Shown here: positions 15,670 through 34,645 of the stretch, piece after piece
Position numbering within the stretch: position 1 is the first letter of the stretch
How the letters are laid out: each line of letters begins with the position of its first letter
Source: Thermoflavifilum thermophilum
Lineage (GTDB): Bacteria > Bacteroidota > Bacteroidia > Chitinophagales > Chitinophagaceae
DNA: 64,000 nt
Assembly: GCF_900116565.1 (NCBI RefSeq)
Contig: NZ_FPCJ01000001.1
Location: 372,001 to 436,000, forward strand
Direction of reading: 5' to 3'
Position numbers and translations under genes: made by a program
The notes under the pieces: model-generated
The model's input: the letters and a program-made list of their open reading frames with translations, nothing else
Told to the model about the DNA's origin: nothing
Databases searched by the model: none

Positions 15670-16605
15670 GTGGCTAAAAAAGATTATTACTCGATTTTGG
15701 GTGTATCGCGATCGGCAACTGAGGATGAAATCAAAAAGGCTTATCGCAAGCTGGCCATCAAATATCATCCGGATAAAAATCCGGGCAATAAGGAAGCTGA
15801 GGAAAAATTCAAAGAAATCAACGAAGCGTATGAAGTGCTGAGCGATCCGGAGAAGCGAAAAAAATATGACCAGTTTGGCGATCAATGGCAATATGCCGAT
15901 CAATTTGCTGGCCAGCAAGGGAAAACTTATAGCTGGGGTAGCCCGGGAAGTGGACAAACCTTTTACTATGAAGGCGATATCGAGGATCTGTTTGGTGATG
16001 CCGGACTGGGCGGCATATTTGAACATCTGTTCGGACATAGAAGAGGAGCTGGATCCCGTACCCGTACACGCGCAGGATCAGCCAGGGGAGCCGATTTGCA
16101 GGCCAGCATGACCTTGAGCTTCGACGAAGCTTATCATGGCACGGAACGTCTCATTGAAGTGAATGGCCAAAAGATGCGCATCAAGCTGAAGCCAGGCGTG
16201 TACGACGGGATGCAAATCCGCATCACAGGTAAAGGCCAGCCTGGCGTAGGCGGGGGACCTGCTGGAGATTTGTACATCACCCTGCATGTGTTGCCGCATC
16301 ATCAGTTCATCCGGGACGGCAACGACCTGAAACAAACCATCACCATTCCCTTCTGGGATGCTTTGCTGGGTGCCAAGAAAGAAGTGGCTACGCCTTCCGG
16401 TAAAATTTTACTGACCATACCCCCGGGCACGACCCATGGATCAATCCTGCGCATCCGTGGCAAAGGCATGCCCGTGTATAACCAGCCCGGCCAGTTTGGC
16501 GATATGCTGGTGGAAGTGCATCTGTGGATGCCCACCCGGCTCACCGAAGAACAACGCAGAGCCGTGGAGCAAATGAAACAAACATTTGAACATGCAAAAG
16601 TGTAA
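15670..16605 (+). CDS. cbpA: CbpA-type DnaJ co-chaperone (J domain, no zinc finger)
   Basis: A 311-residue J-protein. The J domain (4-70) has the HPD triad at 33-35 that stimulates DnaK ATPase activity. A Gly/aromatic-rich linker (about 75-135) follows, with two C-terminal client-binding beta domains (about 140-300, including [17 protein letters not shown] and [20 protein letters not shown]). The four CxxCxGxG zinc motifs of DnaJ are absent, which places it with CbpA/type II J-proteins. The start is a GTG at 15670; no ATG fits the J-domain start. It follows hsp20 after a terminator, and its stop lies four bases before the next ATG. The context indicates a heat or stress role beside the housekeeping DnaJ. 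Confidence 0.93.
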
Positions 16606-16609
16606 ACTT

Positions 16610-16969
16610 ATGAATACCTTAAGCCCGGTAGCATACGATTATCAGGATATCTTGCACCGCCTGATCGAAAATGAAATCGAAATGCAATTATGGAAACGAC
16701 GCATGTATCTGGCATACTGGCTGCAACGGATGGAGCTATGCATGCAAGATGAGATAGAATCGCTGATTGATCAAACCAAACGCATTTTACTGCTGGCTGG
16801 TGAATATCCTGATGATCATATTCATGCAGTGTTTGTAGATGAACAAGGTCGTTTGATGCGCAGCTGGATGATGTCGAGTGAAGCCTTCCAACTGCTCATC
16901 CATCACCTGCCCGTGAAAGATACGCGCACAGCGCGTTTTCTGCTCTACTGGATTCGTCATCACCTATAA
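16610..16969 (+). CDS. Unidentified 119-residue protein between the J-protein and FtsH
   Basis: I do not recognise this protein. It is mostly helical, with an N-terminal stretch rich in Glu, Met, Trp and Tyr (IENEIEMQLWKRRMYLAYW), a short middle segment HIHAVFVDEQGRLMRSW, and a basic C-terminus RFLLYWIRHHL. There is no signal peptide, no membrane segment and no zinc motif. In position it recalls CbpM, the small modulator encoded next to cbpA in E. coli, but I see no MerR-like CbpM signature. ATG 16610 lies four bases after the cbpA stop and 11 bases separate its stop from ftsH, so it belongs to the cbpA-ftsH transcript. An upstream ATG at 16592 inside cbpA is less likely. Confidence 0.8.
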   Translation: MNTLSPVAYDYQDILHRLIENEIEMQLWKRRMYLAYWLQRMELCMQDEIESLIDQTKRILLLAGEYPDDHIHAVFVDEQGRLMRSWMMSSEAFQLLIHHLPVKDTRTARFLLYWIRHHL

Positions 16970-16980
16970 AAAACAACATC

Positions 16981-18891
16981 ATGGAAAAGAATCAAAAATT
17001 TACGCTCTGGTATTTTCTTAGTCTCATGGCGGGCATCCTGTTGCTGCAGTGGCTTTTCTTTCCGCCCCAGTATGCCACGCATGAATTGAGCTATACACAA
17101 TTCAAGCATAAAGTAGATTCCGGGCTGGTAGAACGTGTGGTGATTTTTCCCGACAAGATAGTAGGCCTGCTGAAAAATACCGATTCTACTCATCATAACG
17201 GTAAAATAGAAACCAGTCCCTCTACGCCCTGGCGCATCCGGCTGCAGGAAGTGGAAAATGAAGTCAATCGTCAGTTTGTGGTGAGTCGTATTCCGAATGT
17301 GGATGATCGTTCCTTGCTGCAAATGTTGGATGATCATGGCGTAGATTATTCAGGTAAAATTGAGGATCACACCCTGCGCAACTTTTTCCTGAACTGGATT
17401 TTGCCCATCATCTTTTTTGTGGCGTTGTATGGATTTTTATTCCGCCGCATGTTTCCCAAAAATAATTTCCTGCAGGTGGGCGATGGGAAGTTGAAGATCC
17501 ATGATGAAAACCAGCAAAATCCCGTGCGTTTCAGTGATGTGGCCGGTATTGACGAAGCCGTGGAAGAAGTCAAGGAGGTGGTGGATTTTCTGAGGAATCC
17601 ACAGAAATATACCCGCCTGGGGGGTAAGCTGCCCAAAGGCGTGCTGCTGGTGGGCCCGCCCGGCACCGGGAAAACTTTGCTGGCACGTGCCGTGGCAGGC
17701 GAAGCCGGGGTGCCATTCTTCAACATCAGCGGATCAGATTTCGTGGAAATGTTTGTGGGCGTAGGCGCTGCACGGGTGCGCGACCTGTTTCGCCAGGCCA
17801 AAGAAAAAGCTCCCTGCATCATCTTCATCGATGAGCTGGATGCTATTGGCAAAAGCCGCTCTGGCAATGCCGCCTTCATGGGTGGCTACGATGAACGGGA
17901 AAATACGCTGAACCAATTGCTGGTGGAAATGGATGGCTTTGACCCCACCAGCGGATTGATCATCTTCGGCGCTACCAACCGGCCGCAGGTGCTCGATCCA
18001 GCCCTGCTCAGGCCCGGCCGTTTTGATCGGCAAATAGTGGTCGACAGACCGGATATGAAAGGCAGAGAGGCCATTTTCGCTGTGCACACCCGAAAATTAA
18101 AACTGCATCCTTCCGTAAACCTGAAACAGCTGGCGGCCCAAACACCCGGATTTGCCGGCGCCGAAATTGCCAATGTGTGCAATGAAGCCGCCATCATTGC
18201 CGTGCGCAATGGCCATGAAGCCGTGATGCAAAGCGATTTTGAAGCCGCTATTGAGCGCGTGATTGCCGGGCTGGAACGCAAAAGCCGTATCATCAGTCCC
18301 AAAGAAAAACAAATCGTGGCCTATCATGAAGCAGGCCATGCCATCGTAGGATATTTTACACCGGGAGCTGATCAAGTACAAAAAGTTTCCATCGTGCCGC
18401 GCGGCATCGGCGCCTTGGGCTATACCCTGCAAATGCCCCTGGAAGACCGTTACCTGATGACCAAATCGGAACTGCTGGGCAAAATCAAAGGCCTGCTGGG
18501 CGGTCGGGCTGCCGAAGAAATTGTTTTCAACGAAATTTCCACCGGCGCTTCCAACGATTTGGAACGCATCATGCAACTGGCCCGCAGCATGATCACCGTG
18601 TATGGCATGAGTGATAAACTGCCTAACCTATCGCTGGTAACACAAAGCGGACCGGGATTCCTGAAAAATGAACTCTACACCGACAGGCGATCCGAAAAAT
18701 TGGAACAACAAATTGATGAAGAAACTTATCAGATCATAGCACAATGTTATGCAGAAACCAAACAATTATTAACCGAAAAAAGGGAGCTGCTCGATCAACT
18801 GGCACAGGCTTTACTCGAAAAAGAAGTGTTGAATCGCGATGAAATCGTAGCCATCTTATCGGCAACTCCCGCAACCATACAACATCATTAA
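16981..18891 (+). CDS. ftsH: ATP-dependent zinc metalloprotease FtsH
   Basis: A 636-residue membrane-anchored AAA+ protease. Membrane helices are at about 8-27 and 136-155, flanking the periplasmic domain. Walker A is GPPGTGKT (225-232), Walker [12 protein letters not shown], and the second region of homology includes RPGRFDRQI. The zinc site is HEAGH (449-453), with the third ligand in [13 protein letters not shown]. It unfolds and degrades membrane and misfolded cytosolic proteins. It is cotranscribed with the J-protein and followed by thioredoxin, which suggests a dedicated stress FtsH. Whether another ftsH exists elsewhere in the genome cannot be seen here. The C-terminus is shorter than in many housekeeping FtsH proteins, ending soon after [10 protein letters not shown]. 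Confidence 0.96.
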
Positions 18892-18925: not shown

Positions 18926-19234
18926 ATGGAACCGTTTCATCAACTGATTCAATCCGAACAACCTGTGCTGGTTGATTTTTATGCCGACTGGTGCGGTCCC
19001 TGCAAGGCCATGCATCCGATTATTCAGGATGTGGCTCGTCAAGTGCAGGGCAAAGCACGGGTGATTAAAATTAATGTAGATAAAAATCAGCAAACAGCTA
19101 TGCAATATCAAATTCAGGCTATCCCTACATTCATTATTTTTCAGAAGGGACAAATCAAATGGCGTCATACCGGCATGATTGACCGGCAAACACTGCTGAA
19201 TCAATTGCTGAGCTTATCACAGGTTTCATCTTAA
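18926..19234 (+). CDS. Thioredoxin
   Basis: A 102-residue cytoplasmic thioredoxin with the intact active site WCGPCK (22-27), the buried aspartate in VDFYADW, the cis-proline loop AIPTFIIF and the C-terminal glycine region. There is no signal peptide. It reduces protein disulfides. Placed 34 bases after ftsH and 20 bases before the HPF-sigma fusion gene, it completes a cluster of chaperone, protease and redox functions like those in Proteobacterial heat-resistance islands. It is probably an accessory paralogue of the main thioredoxin. Confidence 0.95.
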   Translation: MEPFHQLIQSEQPVLVDFYADWCGPCKAMHPIIQDVARQVQGKARVIKINVDKNQQTAMQYQIQAIPTFIIFQKGQIKWRHTGMIDRQTLLNQLLSLSQVSS

Positions 19235-19254: not shown

Positions 19255-20307
19255 ATGACTATGAAATATCATATTCAAAATCTACATCTGGTGCAACCAC
19301 CTCAACAGCAAACATTTTTTGAAGAAGAAATCCAGAAAAAGCTCAAACGCATTGAACGGATCTTAAAAGAATATCCTAAACTTCCAACGCTTGCTGTGCA
19401 TATCAAAAAGGAAGGTGCTGAATATGTGATTACACTTACTTTACCCATGCTTTCCAAAGTATTGCTGGTAAAGGACCGTGGTACATCGGCTGTCTTGACT
19501 GTGAACAATGCTTTGGATACGCTACGCAAAGCCGTGCGTGAACAAAAGCGGGTGGAGCGAAAAGATTATTTATTCAAAAGGAAACAACAACTCGAACAAC
19601 GTACCCAGCAAGGCAGACAGATTCTTAGTCAGCTTCACCAGGAAAGCGATGCGGAAAACTTCATCCATTATCTGGATCAAATTTTACCTGATCTAAGGCA
19701 ACATGTCATGCGCGAAGCATTTCGTAAACCTCTCTTGAGGATGTTGATCAAAGAAAATAAACTCAAAATAAATGATATCCTGAACGATCTGTATATCAGC
19801 ATTTACGATGCATACGGACAACTAAAAGAAGCTCCTGAAAAACTGAATTTGTGGGTTTATGAAATCGCAGATCGAAAACTGCAGGAAATCAGCGAACGAT
19901 ACAAACAAGAATTTGGTGTGGAACGTGATTGGATGCCAGCAGCAGAAACAGCCGAAAGTGAAGAACTCACAGCTAATGCTGAAGAAATGCCCGAACTGGT
20001 GGAAGATCTGGATGATGTTTCCTATCACATGAAACAATATGCCTGGGATGAGATTCTGATGGATGCAGGCTTATCAGATGAGGAAATCGAACAATTTGAA
20101 ACCGAAGAAGCTGAGCAAACCATGAAACAATGGCTGCGGGAGCAAGATAGTTATGCATTATCTGTATTTGAGATGCATTATCTGGAACGCTACGCCGTTG
20201 CTGAAATTGCTCATATCAAAGGAAAACAGGAAGCTGAAATTGAACAGTTGCTGCAGGATATGCGAACCCGTTTGATTAATTATCTGAAAGAAAAAATACT
20301 GTCCTGA
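19255..20307 (+). CDS. Fusion of an HPF/RaiA-like ribosome-binding domain with sigma-70-like regions 2 and 4
   Basis: A 350-residue protein of unusual build. Residues 1-112 resemble ribosome hibernation factors: helix EEEIQKKLKRIERILKEY, strands LAVHIKKEG and YVITLTLPM, the basic-loop strand LLVKDRG, and a helix with ALDTLRKAVREQKRVERK. Residues 150-220 look like sigma-70 region 2 (INDILNDLYISIYDAY, then LWVYEIADRKLQEI). A very acidic linker follows (228-288). Residues 292-345 look like sigma region 4 (SVFEMHYLERYAVAEIAH, then IEQLLQDMRTRLINYL). I infer a stress protein that could hold ribosomes and also touch RNA polymerase or DNA; neither is shown. The sigma-like parts are diverged and may have lost promoter recognition. 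It is the last gene of the hsp20-cbpA-ftsH-trx cluster. No terminator was seen after it. Confidence 0.75.
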   Translation: MTMKYHIQNLHLVQPPQQQTFFEEEIQKKLKRIERILKEYPKLPTLAVHIKKEGAEYVITLTLPMLSKVLLVKDRGTSAVLTVNNALDTLRKAVREQKRVERKDYLFKRKQQLEQRTQQGRQILSQLHQESDAENFIHYLDQILPDLRQHVMREAFRKPLLRMLIKENKLKINDILNDLYISIYDAYGQLKEAPEKLNLWVYEIADRKLQEISERYKQEFGVERDWMPAAETAESEELTANAEEMPELVEDLDDVSYHMKQYAWDEILMDAGLSDEEIEQFETEEAEQTMKQWLREQDSYALSVFEMHYLERYAVAEIAHIKGKQEAEIEQLLQDMRTRLINYLKEKILS

Positions 20308-33570: not shown

Positions 33571-33870
33571 ATGTTTGCGATTGTACAGATAGCCGGAAAG
33601 CAATTCAAAGTTACACCCGGACAATCATTGTTGGTGAACCGCCTGCAGGGTGAAGTTGGAGATACTGTGGTATTCGAAGATGTACCACTTGTGGTTGATG
33701 ATCAAACATTGCAAAGCGGAAATACTGGGAAAAAAGTAAAAGCCAGTATTCAATATCATACATTGGGCAAAAAAGTAATTGCTTTTAAAATGAAGCGCAG
33801 AAAAGGATTCCGAAAGAAAAAAGGGTTCCGTGCAGCTTTAACATGCATCAAAATTGAAGACATCAGTTAA
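33571..33870 (+). CDS. rplU: 50S ribosomal protein bL21
   Basis: A 99-residue bL21, of standard length, with MFAIVQIAGKQFKV at the start, the EDVPLVVDD segment, and the rRNA-binding basic region FKMKRRKGFRKKKGFR near the C-terminus. It binds 23S rRNA with bL20. It is followed by rpmA after 54 bases, the conserved order in bacteria. ATG 33571 gives the universal N-terminus. Confidence 0.98.
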   Translation: MFAIVQIAGKQFKVTPGQSLLVNRLQGEVGDTVVFEDVPLVVDDQTLQSGNTGKKVKASIQYHTLGKKVIAFKMKRRKGFRKKKGFRAALTCIKIEDIS

Positions 33871-33924
33871 AAAATATTTGTTTGATATCCTGTTGTTTTT
33901 ACTTAACTTTAAATTGATATTCAA

Positions 33925-34197
33925 ATGGCACATAAAAAAGGTGAAGGCAGTGTAAAAAATGGTCGCGATTCGCAGAGTAAACGCCTTGGCGTAAAAGTGT
34001 TTGGTGGACAAACTGTGAAAAGCGGCAATATTATCGTGCGGCAAAGAGGTACCGTTTATCATCCGGGTAAAAATGTGGGACTGGGAAGAGATTTTACCCT
34101 TTTTGCATTGATTGATGGTGTGGTTGAATTCAAAAAAGGAAAAAATGACAAGACAATTGTCTCGGTAATCCCTGTGAACACTCCTGCTGAGGCTTAG
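33925..34197 (+). CDS. rpmA: 50S ribosomal protein bL27
   Basis: A 90-residue bL27 starting [19 protein letters not shown], with [21 protein letters not shown] and [17 protein letters not shown]. Its N-terminal tail reaches the peptidyl transferase centre. The usual GGGS is GEGS here and the usual STRNGRDS is SVKNGRDS, which are small changes. There is no Firmicute-type cleaved N-terminal extension. The histone-like gene follows on the same strand 64 bases later. Confidence 0.98.
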
Positions 34198-34261
34198 GCC
34201 TGAACGGTGGTGTTTGCCATAAAGTCTTTTATTTTTTATTACTAACCCAAAATTCACAGTT

Positions 34262-34645
34262 ATGGCAAGACCAAAAAAAAGAGCGACCAGAAAGGCCGCC
34301 AGTAAGAAAAAAGCAGCTACCCGTAAAAAAAGAGCAACCCGTAAAAAGGCTGCAGTAAGGAAAAAAGCTGCACGGGGAAAGAAAAAAGCCGCTTCCAGAA
34401 AAAAGGCAGCAACCAGAAAAAAAAGAGCTACGCGTAAAAAAGCTGCAACCCGCAAAAAAGCTGCTGGAAGAAAAAAAGCTGCAGCAAAGAAAAAAGCAGC
34501 AACGCGTAAAAAAGCTGCAACCCGCAAAAAGAAAGCAGCAGTACGGAAAAAACGGGCTATGCCCAAAAATGCCGGTAACGGAACTACCGGAACTGCCACA
34601 GGGCCAGCCGAAGGGATGAATAGTACACCCCCCCTGATGCCCTGA
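34262..34645 (+). CDS. Histone H1-like Lys/Ala/Arg-rich repeat protein
   Basis: A 127-residue, extremely basic protein. Residues 1-100 are built almost wholly of K, A, R and T in short repeats such as KKAATRKKRATRKKAA, like the C-terminal tails of eukaryotic H1 and the Hc1/Hc2 or AlgP-type bacterial proteins. The last 27 residues are neutral and flexible (NAGNGTTGTATG). It has no folded domain and no signal peptide, and is probably a DNA- or RNA-compacting protein. It lies between bL27 and PolX and is followed by a strong terminator at 34670. The repeats make the length prone to change by slippage. The long opposite-strand open frames here are composition artefacts. Confidence 0.85.
   Translation: MARPKKRATRKAASKKKAATRKKRATRKKAAVRKKAARGKKKAASRKKAATRKKRATRKKAATRKKAAGRKKAAAKKKAATRKKAATRKKKAAVRKKRAMPKNAGNGTTGTATGPAEGMNSTPPLMP

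Follow-up and report, generated by a model that had tools for sequence, protein, structure and literature searches.

An HPF-like domain joined to sigma-70 region 2- and region 4-like folds in Thermoflavifilum and other Chitinophagales: a candidate link between ribosome hibernation and transcription

Introduction

In long hibernation-promoting factors (HPFs), a C-terminal module makes ribosome dimers. Here, we analyze a gene whose product carries an N-terminal HPF/RaiA-like domain followed by folds resembling sigma-70 regions 2 and 4, and which therefore shares with long HPFs the N-terminal domain and the presence of a second module, the latter being sigma-like instead. The gene lies in a 64,000-nucleotide stretch of the Thermoflavifilum thermophilum genome (contig NZ_FPCJ01000001.1, positions 372,001 to 436,000; hereafter the window). 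A related design is that of HibA, where an HPF/RaiA domain is likewise fused to an unrelated regulatory module, but this module is of the CBS type, the HPF domain is located at the C-terminus and the protein is archaeal (PMC13324472, accessible part). In the same source, PF16321 serves as the profile for the C-terminal domain of long HPFs and a CD-search is reported that looked for fusion partners of bacterial HPFs, whereas a sigma fusion is not mentioned in the accessible part of its text (PMC13324472). PhyR, a sigma mimic with sigma2- and sigma4-like subdomains that acts in the general stress response, resembles the present protein in having a sigma2–sigma4-like module thought not to read promoters and a role in stress control; the receiver domain and the partner NepR are particular to PhyR, according to the accessible part of the source (PMC4598750). 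A Pfam scan of the window protein at E<=10 listed no match to PF16321, to a CBS domain or to a receiver domain.

Rsd of Escherichia coli is not itself sigma-like. Together with RMF/HPF, it provides the nearest printed idea of a joint hibernation that we found, namely a coordinated hibernation of the transcription and translation machineries, although separate proteins are involved there instead of one chain and Rsd stores RpoD (PMC6904343, accessible part). In the open-licence literature searched, judged by titles and the beginnings of abstracts among the matches listed, neither an HPF–sigma fusion nor a sigma-like family with a conserved acidic motif was found to be described. The protein, present in some Bacteroidota, may represent one chain linking the shutdown of protein synthesis to the control of transcription.

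An HPF domain and two sigma-70 folds in one chain

The original prediction, made from the DNA letters alone, placed an HPF/RaiA-like segment at residues 1–112 and sigma-70 region 2- and region 4-like segments at residues 150–220 and 292–345, joined by a very acidic linker. Its open reading frame (ORF) coordinates proved correct from ATG to stop, and the domain order of HPF, sigma-2, linker and sigma-4 is borne out by profile and fold evidence. The best boundaries are now ~3–102 for the HPF domain with a basic tail to residue 112, ~124–219 for the sigma-2-like and ~282–349 for the sigma-4-like fold (Table 1). Residue 3 is an alternative Met start, at which the ORF of genome G014 begins. The gene is located at G000:C2:391255 of a 2.86 Mb genome (G000), and orthologs with 93% and 73% identity are present in two further genomes of Thermoflavifilum, a genus of the Chitinophagaceae (Chitinophagales, Bacteroidota). 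A search with the single protein matched 3 of 117 Chitinophagaceae genomes, all of this one genus.

Searches with single sequences are too weak for either domain, and relatives were therefore needed for the assignment: phmmer found no match of the window protein in the PDB at E<=10, and all Pfam matches stayed below threshold, some of them (e.g., Mga and Phage_integrase) probably arising by chance. The N-terminus alone matched the Pfam S30AE model at E 0.0035 with 18.5 bits, below the cut-off of 23.7; at E<=0.1, 5/15 family members match (best 1.1e-4), and the cut-off is reached by two relatives, one with 25.0 bits and one with 23.8 when its neighbors in frame are included. A profile of 15 N-domain sequences (13 fusions and two short HPF-like proteins) aligned with a profile of 14 canonical HPFs from the sampled genomes over 96 columns (hhalign, 95.1%, E 2.9e-8), and the cross-control against extracytoplasmic-function (ECF) sigma factors gave no match (0.3%). 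The same profile matched 21 PDB sequences at E<=1, 20 of which are of the HPF/RaiA type (best E 2.5e-5). Predicted alone, the domain yields a low-confidence model (predicted local distance difference test, pLDDT, 61.1) of alpha-beta-beta-beta-alpha topology, in which the first strand is not resolved; by title, its Foldseek ranks 1–12 are HPF/YfiA or hibernating-ribosome chains, with weak E-values of 0.043–0.37. No HPF chain appeared among the best 50 Foldseek matches of the full-length model, in which most of the N-domain has a pLDDT of ~50 or lower. Residues 1–112, ending in the basic tail ERKDYLFKRK, carry a net charge of +11 in the window protein and of +6 to +17 across the 14 fusion copies, compared with −1 to +8 in the 14 canonical, slightly shorter HPFs. 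These results confirm the N-terminal domain as a diverged HPF/RaiA (S30AE) domain. With short HPF/RaiA (YfiA) proteins it shares the S30AE domain, the order of strands and helices as far as modeled and the basic net charge; it differs in its divergence below the Pfam cut-off and in its second, sigma-like half. As the window genome carries an ordinary short HPF elsewhere (G000:C2:1981956), the fused domain is an additional, diverged one.

The C-terminal half is confirmed to consist of sigma-70 region 2 and region 4 folds in this order. TIGR02937 matches window residues 162–344 at E 6e-6, with 26 or 33.2 bits and hence below its curated cut-off of 42.9; all 15 members of the family alignment A2 match at E<=0.1 (best 3.9e-21), and a fusion in genome G133 (C34:373470) exceeds the cut-off with 48.6 bits. 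Within the same 15 proteins, Pfam identified Sigma70_r4_2 in 13 and Sigma70_r2 in six. A profile of 20 sigma-like parts aligned with seven ECF sigma factors over 164 columns (hhalign, 98.8%, E 4.5e-17) and not with HPFs (0.5%), and SigW (5wuq) was matched at E 1.6e-10 in separate region 2 and region 4 stretches. A full-length model built from three sequences reached a mean pLDDT of 57.7, with block means of 60–87 from residue ~131 onward except for ~221–260. Its Foldseek ranks 1–40 are by title sigma factors or complexes containing them, three “RPSx” models being interpreted as sigma (best E 1.2e-3, none <0.001). Region 4 of sigma-E could be superimposed on the model (Z 11.0, rmsd 2.2, 69 residues); helical folds can reach such Z-scores through a common arrangement without kinship, as the tool itself warns, and the profile evidence therefore outweighs the superposition. 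Profile and fold evidence with negative cross-controls rule out a chance resemblance.

DNA-contact residues are mostly lost in the sigma-like module

To compare the module with ordinary sigma factors, 22 sigma-like parts of the family (14 fusions and eight stand-alone genes) were aligned with 25 ordinary ECF sigma factors of genomes G000, G133, and G551. These controls come from the best 30 of 66 TIGR02937 loci, a choice favoring typical residues among them; five primary sigma factors (L109–L113) and two ORFs on the wrong strand in kept loci were dropped, and L115 was trimmed by 45 residues at its over-long N-terminus. The rows are mutually related, and P values are descriptive only. The region 2.4 Asn is found in 1/22 family members compared with 23/25 ECF sigma factors, the region 2.2 Gln in 1/22 compared with 21/25 (Asp or Asn taking its place in 19/22), and Lys or Arg at the recognition-helix position in 2/22 compared with 18/25 (Glu in 13/22). 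Residues of the core are retained, with the region 2.3 Trp in 18/22 and 19/25 and the Ala of the EIA turn in 21/22 and 19/25 sequences, respectively. Mean charges differ accordingly in sign, at −2.0 for the family and +2.6 for ECF sigma factors in regions 2.3–2.4 and at −0.4 and +3.2 in the recognition helix. The window protein follows this pattern: the Trp/Ala core and the EIA turn are kept, the region 2.2 Gln and region 2.4 Asn are replaced, the basic position of the recognition helix is Glu, and the charges of the two segments are −1 and −2. The region 2.4 Asn and the basic recognition-helix residue are presumably among those that serve −10 reading and melting and −35 contact in ECF sigma factors. 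Two acidic positions of region 2.2, which we align with E. coli residues 403 and 407, are Asp or Glu in 17/22 and 16/22 family members, compared with 25/25 and 20/25 controls. Sigma 2.2 residues 403, 406, 407, and 409 meet the beta-prime coiled coil, according to the accessible part of a study on endosymbiont polymerases (PMC8321222).

Apart from these positions, the family has the sigma-2 and sigma-4 folds and core residues of ECF sigma factors, and differs from them by ~11 extra residues within region 2 and by the long acidic linker with its conserved motif. In the window protein, the 59-residue linker contains 20 Asp/Glu and 2 Lys/Arg, in line with its earlier description as very acidic. 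The commonest form of its motif in the family is EELDDISYH. Since stand-alone sigma-like relatives, which have no HPF domain in the chain, carry the motif too, it appears to serve the sigma-like module itself. A DxDGD stretch resembling an acidic metal-binding loop precedes the motif in many relatives (e.g., L034:6938-8047). A calcium-binding, EF-hand-like role of this stretch was set aside, as it is absent from the window genus and two other copies. Because most DNA-contact positions are lost while the core is kept, the module, judging from its residues, probably mimics a sigma factor without reading promoters.

The fusion recurs in three families and is maintained by selection

Other families of the order carry the same fusion. 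At E<=1e-12, profile A2 matched 16 of 396 sampled Chitinophagales genomes, with fusions in 14 copies from 10 genomes of three families (f1, f5, and f18), which rules out an assembly join of two genes. In the remaining six genomes (G231, G224, G778, G820, G328, and G204), the sigma-like gene stands alone, and a short HPF-like gene accompanies it in the genomes G328, G820, and G204, the G204 match having an internal stop. In G328 and G820, genes for YfdX, the sigma-like protein, an HdeD-type protein and the HPF-like protein follow each other on one strand; both halves of the fusion are hence near neighbors, with one HdeD-type gene between them. A sample of 395 genomes across the phylum added seven genomes of family f25, presumably Flavobacteriaceae, whose sigma-like relatives (E<=1e-29) lack an HPF part; one of these has an internal stop codon. 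Full fusions among the matches listed from this sample were those of G000 and G133 only, and many further matches were ordinary sigma factors hit by region 4 alone; as five candidates were scored per genome in the phylum search and in a second search of the order, absences are not firm. Members of the sigma-like family with its conserved acidic motif are found in the Chitinophagales and in a further family of the same class, in many cases near protein-quality-control genes.

In a tree of the 26 family rows used for the neighborhood comparison below and six ECF sigma factors, the family is split from the latter with full support; the order of the fusion branches is unresolved, so that one and several fusion events cannot be distinguished. 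The S30AE model at E<=0.01 found no match in G120, G140, G164, and G231, though this model misses diverged members and the genomes of G164 and G231 are only 82% and 72% complete. In G120, G140, and G164, the fusion may be the sole factor of the HPF kind.

The ratio of nonsynonymous to synonymous substitution rates (dN/dS) between the window gene and that of G014 is 0.18 for the HPF domain, 0.06 for sigma-2, 0.06 for the linker, and 0.12 for sigma-4, values that rest on this one pair, as synonymous sites are close to saturation or fully saturated in the other two. All four segments, the linker included, appear maintained under purifying selection. “Decayed”, the word that the original prediction had used for the sigma fold, is therefore the wrong label, and a decaying pseudogene is ruled out by dN/dS from the one usable pair together with conservation. 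Carriage as phage or plasmid cargo was unsupported by searches of viral contigs (with a G133 fusion and the genus alignment), plasmids (with a G133 fusion and the G328 HPF-like protein), and phages (with the window protein).

Proposed function and alternative explanations

We propose, with a probability of roughly 0.4, that one hand of the protein idles ribosomes and the other binds core RNA polymerase as a sigma mimic, both machineries being parked jointly under stress. By inference from known HPFs, the HPF hand would occupy the mRNA/tRNA channel of the 30S subunit, keeping the ribosome idle. The sigma-like hand would occupy a partner of sigma, either core RNA polymerase or an anti-sigma factor. 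Sigma factors have a linker with a path of its own, along which the acidic linker would run. Core RNA polymerase is the first choice of partner, because most family members retain the acidic residues of region 2.2 that face the beta-prime clamp, and on account of this linker path. There, the module would compete with real sigma factors, and heat or protein-damage stress would lead to the parking of the polymerase along with the ribosomes. The fuller version, in which one protein hibernates both halves of gene expression by combining a ribosome lock with a promoter-blind sigma mimic that has a charge-mimicking acidic linker and occupies core RNA polymerase during proteotoxic stress, is more tentative and, in our estimate, rather doubtful. 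If the promoter-blind module is real, such a coupling of polymerase and ribosome hibernation would be directly testable with one purified protein. Of the functions originally suggested, reuse of a sigma fold for ribosome or polymerase contact fits better than an active sigma factor choosing promoters, most DNA-contact positions being replaced.

Several points weigh against this proposal. Polymerase binding could be lost as well, because the region 2.2 Gln is replaced by Asp or Asn in 19/22 family members, and the acidic positions of that region are less uniform than in ECF sigma factors. Region 2.4 of the window protein is not acidic, its ten residues having a net charge of +1. The ECF controls were chosen in a way that favors typical residues, and the neighborhood comparison below is biased toward the family, since its proteostasis queries originate from family loci and from related genomes. 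Overall confidence is low for both structural models (pLDDT 57.7 and 61.1). Finally, stand-alone relatives retain the linker motif, so that the sigma-like module works without a fused HPF domain.

The loss of DNA-contact residues supports capture of an anti-sigma factor as well as polymerase binding. In a PhyR-like scheme, the module would make no contact with the polymerase but titrate an anti-sigma factor and free a real stress sigma factor, with the HPF domain stalling or sensing ribosomes. PhyR itself sets a precedent for this, and the PhyR-family model NF006623 (NCBIfam) matches 8/15 members at E<=0.1 (best 2.8e-5), albeit no better than many ordinary sigma models do. Inspection by eye of the ORFs listed around the loci pointed to no anti-sigma gene, no dedicated search for one having been made, and we know of no counterpart of the long acidic linker in PhyR, which we count against this scheme; on balance we consider it improbable. 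We judge it equally improbable that the sigma-like part is a protein-contact module of the ribosome, which would replace the C-terminal domain of long HPFs in dimerization or partner recruitment and have no role in transcription. The dimerizing module of long HPFs makes an exchange of the second domain plausible; the loss of the region 2.2 Gln and the encoding of both parts in one gene cluster in split relatives are in agreement with it, but stand-alone sigma-like genes are found beside DnaJ, Hsp20, and baeRF genes without a fused HPF.

Less probable still is that the protein functions as an ECF-type sigma factor, although a divergent one, with the HPF domain or contact with the ribosome gating its activity. 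The TIGR02937 matches of all 15 members and the score of the G133 fusion above the cut-off speak for it, whereas the window protein stays below this cut-off and almost every member has substitutions, many of them acidic, at the positions that we assign to −10 and −35 DNA contact. Joint parking of ribosomes and core polymerase is the preferred explanation.

Proteostasis genes often lie near the family

The fusion gene is the last in a one-strand run of dnaJ, an orphan ORF, ftsH, a thioredoxin gene, and the fusion itself, with gaps of 11–34 nt or an overlap, and this run is a probable operon.

Table 1 Features of the fusion gene and its upstream neighbors (positions in the window).
Feature	Position	Strand	Remark
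DnaJ/CbpA-type co-chaperone	15670..16605	+	first gene of probable operon
Orphan ORF between dnaJ and ftsH	16586..16969	+	overlaps dnaJ end; no Pfam match at E<=0.01
FtsH protease	16981..18891	+	
Thioredoxin	18926..19234	+	20 nt upstream of fusion
Whole fusion gene	19255..20307	+	ATG to stop, 350 aa ORF
HPF/RaiA (S30AE) domain	19261..19590	+	residues 3-112
Sigma-70 region 2-like fold	19624..19911	+	residues ~124-219
Acidic linker	19915..20091	+	residues 221-279
Family motif EDLDDVSYH in linker	20002..20028	+	residues 250-258
Sigma-70 region 4-like fold	20098..20301	+	residues ~282-349

Similar genes surround several other family members. The fusion locus of G140 contains ClpB, a rhomboid protein, and an SDH-type protease with thioredoxin and DnaJ, and ClpB, rhomboid, and protease recur in G120; FtsH and YfdX are neighbors in G133 and G351, Hsp20 in G164 and G491, DnaJ in G283 and G551, DnaJ with a MerR_2/CbpM-like gene in G231, and a LonB-like protease with thioredoxin in G778. 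Twelve proteostasis query proteins were then compared with flanks of up to 1.5 kb, some loci reaching a contig end, for a set of 26 rows comprising the 22 rows above and the stand-alone genes of G224, G778, G820, and G204; G466, where the sigma-like match spans a stop codon, is outside both sets. With the queries chosen as stated above, a proteostasis neighbor was found in 17/26 family loci (11/14 fusions and 6/12 stand-alone genes) compared with 0/25 ECF loci. The nine family loci without a match are G346, G120b, G140b, G510, G535, G579, G462, G224, and G204.

These surroundings are reminiscent of two described gene sets. The transmissible locus of stress tolerance (tLST, or locus of heat resistance) comprises clpK/clpG, sHsp20, yfdX, hdeD, trx, kefB, and degP and has FtsH, thioredoxin, Hsp20, YfdX, and HdeD in common with the neighbors described here (PMC8290217, accessible part). 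Several tLST members recur across the family loci, and no full set was seen in the stretches of 4–12 kb, in which genes are partly annotated. Balon, a relative of aeRF1 and a hibernation factor, is reported from operons with RaiA, DnaJ, Hsp20, HdeD, and alternative sigma70 genes, which are shared with the neighborhoods described here (PMC10901736, accessible part). The accessible parts of these two sources contain no mention of an HPF–sigma fusion for tLST (PMC8290217) or for Balon operons (PMC10901736). Families of the baeRF type have also been linked to HPF genes, as stated in the accessible part of a further study (PMC6514570). Genes of this type adjoin the stand-alone sigma-like genes of G551 and G466 and are 59% identical to each other. 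In two f25 genomes, Balon-type baeRF genes are located beside sigma-like genes at L074:4971-6122, as identified by Pfam, and at L075:3154-4332, as identified by 59% identity.

An orphan family of 120 residues without a Pfam match is encoded in three family loci (L030:5360-5725, L035:1455-1814, and L074:2715-3074), with pairwise E-values of 5e-18 and 9e-25. Elsewhere in the window, a long low-complexity ORF on the minus strand (33838-34599) resembles the antisense of a Lys/Ala-rich frame.
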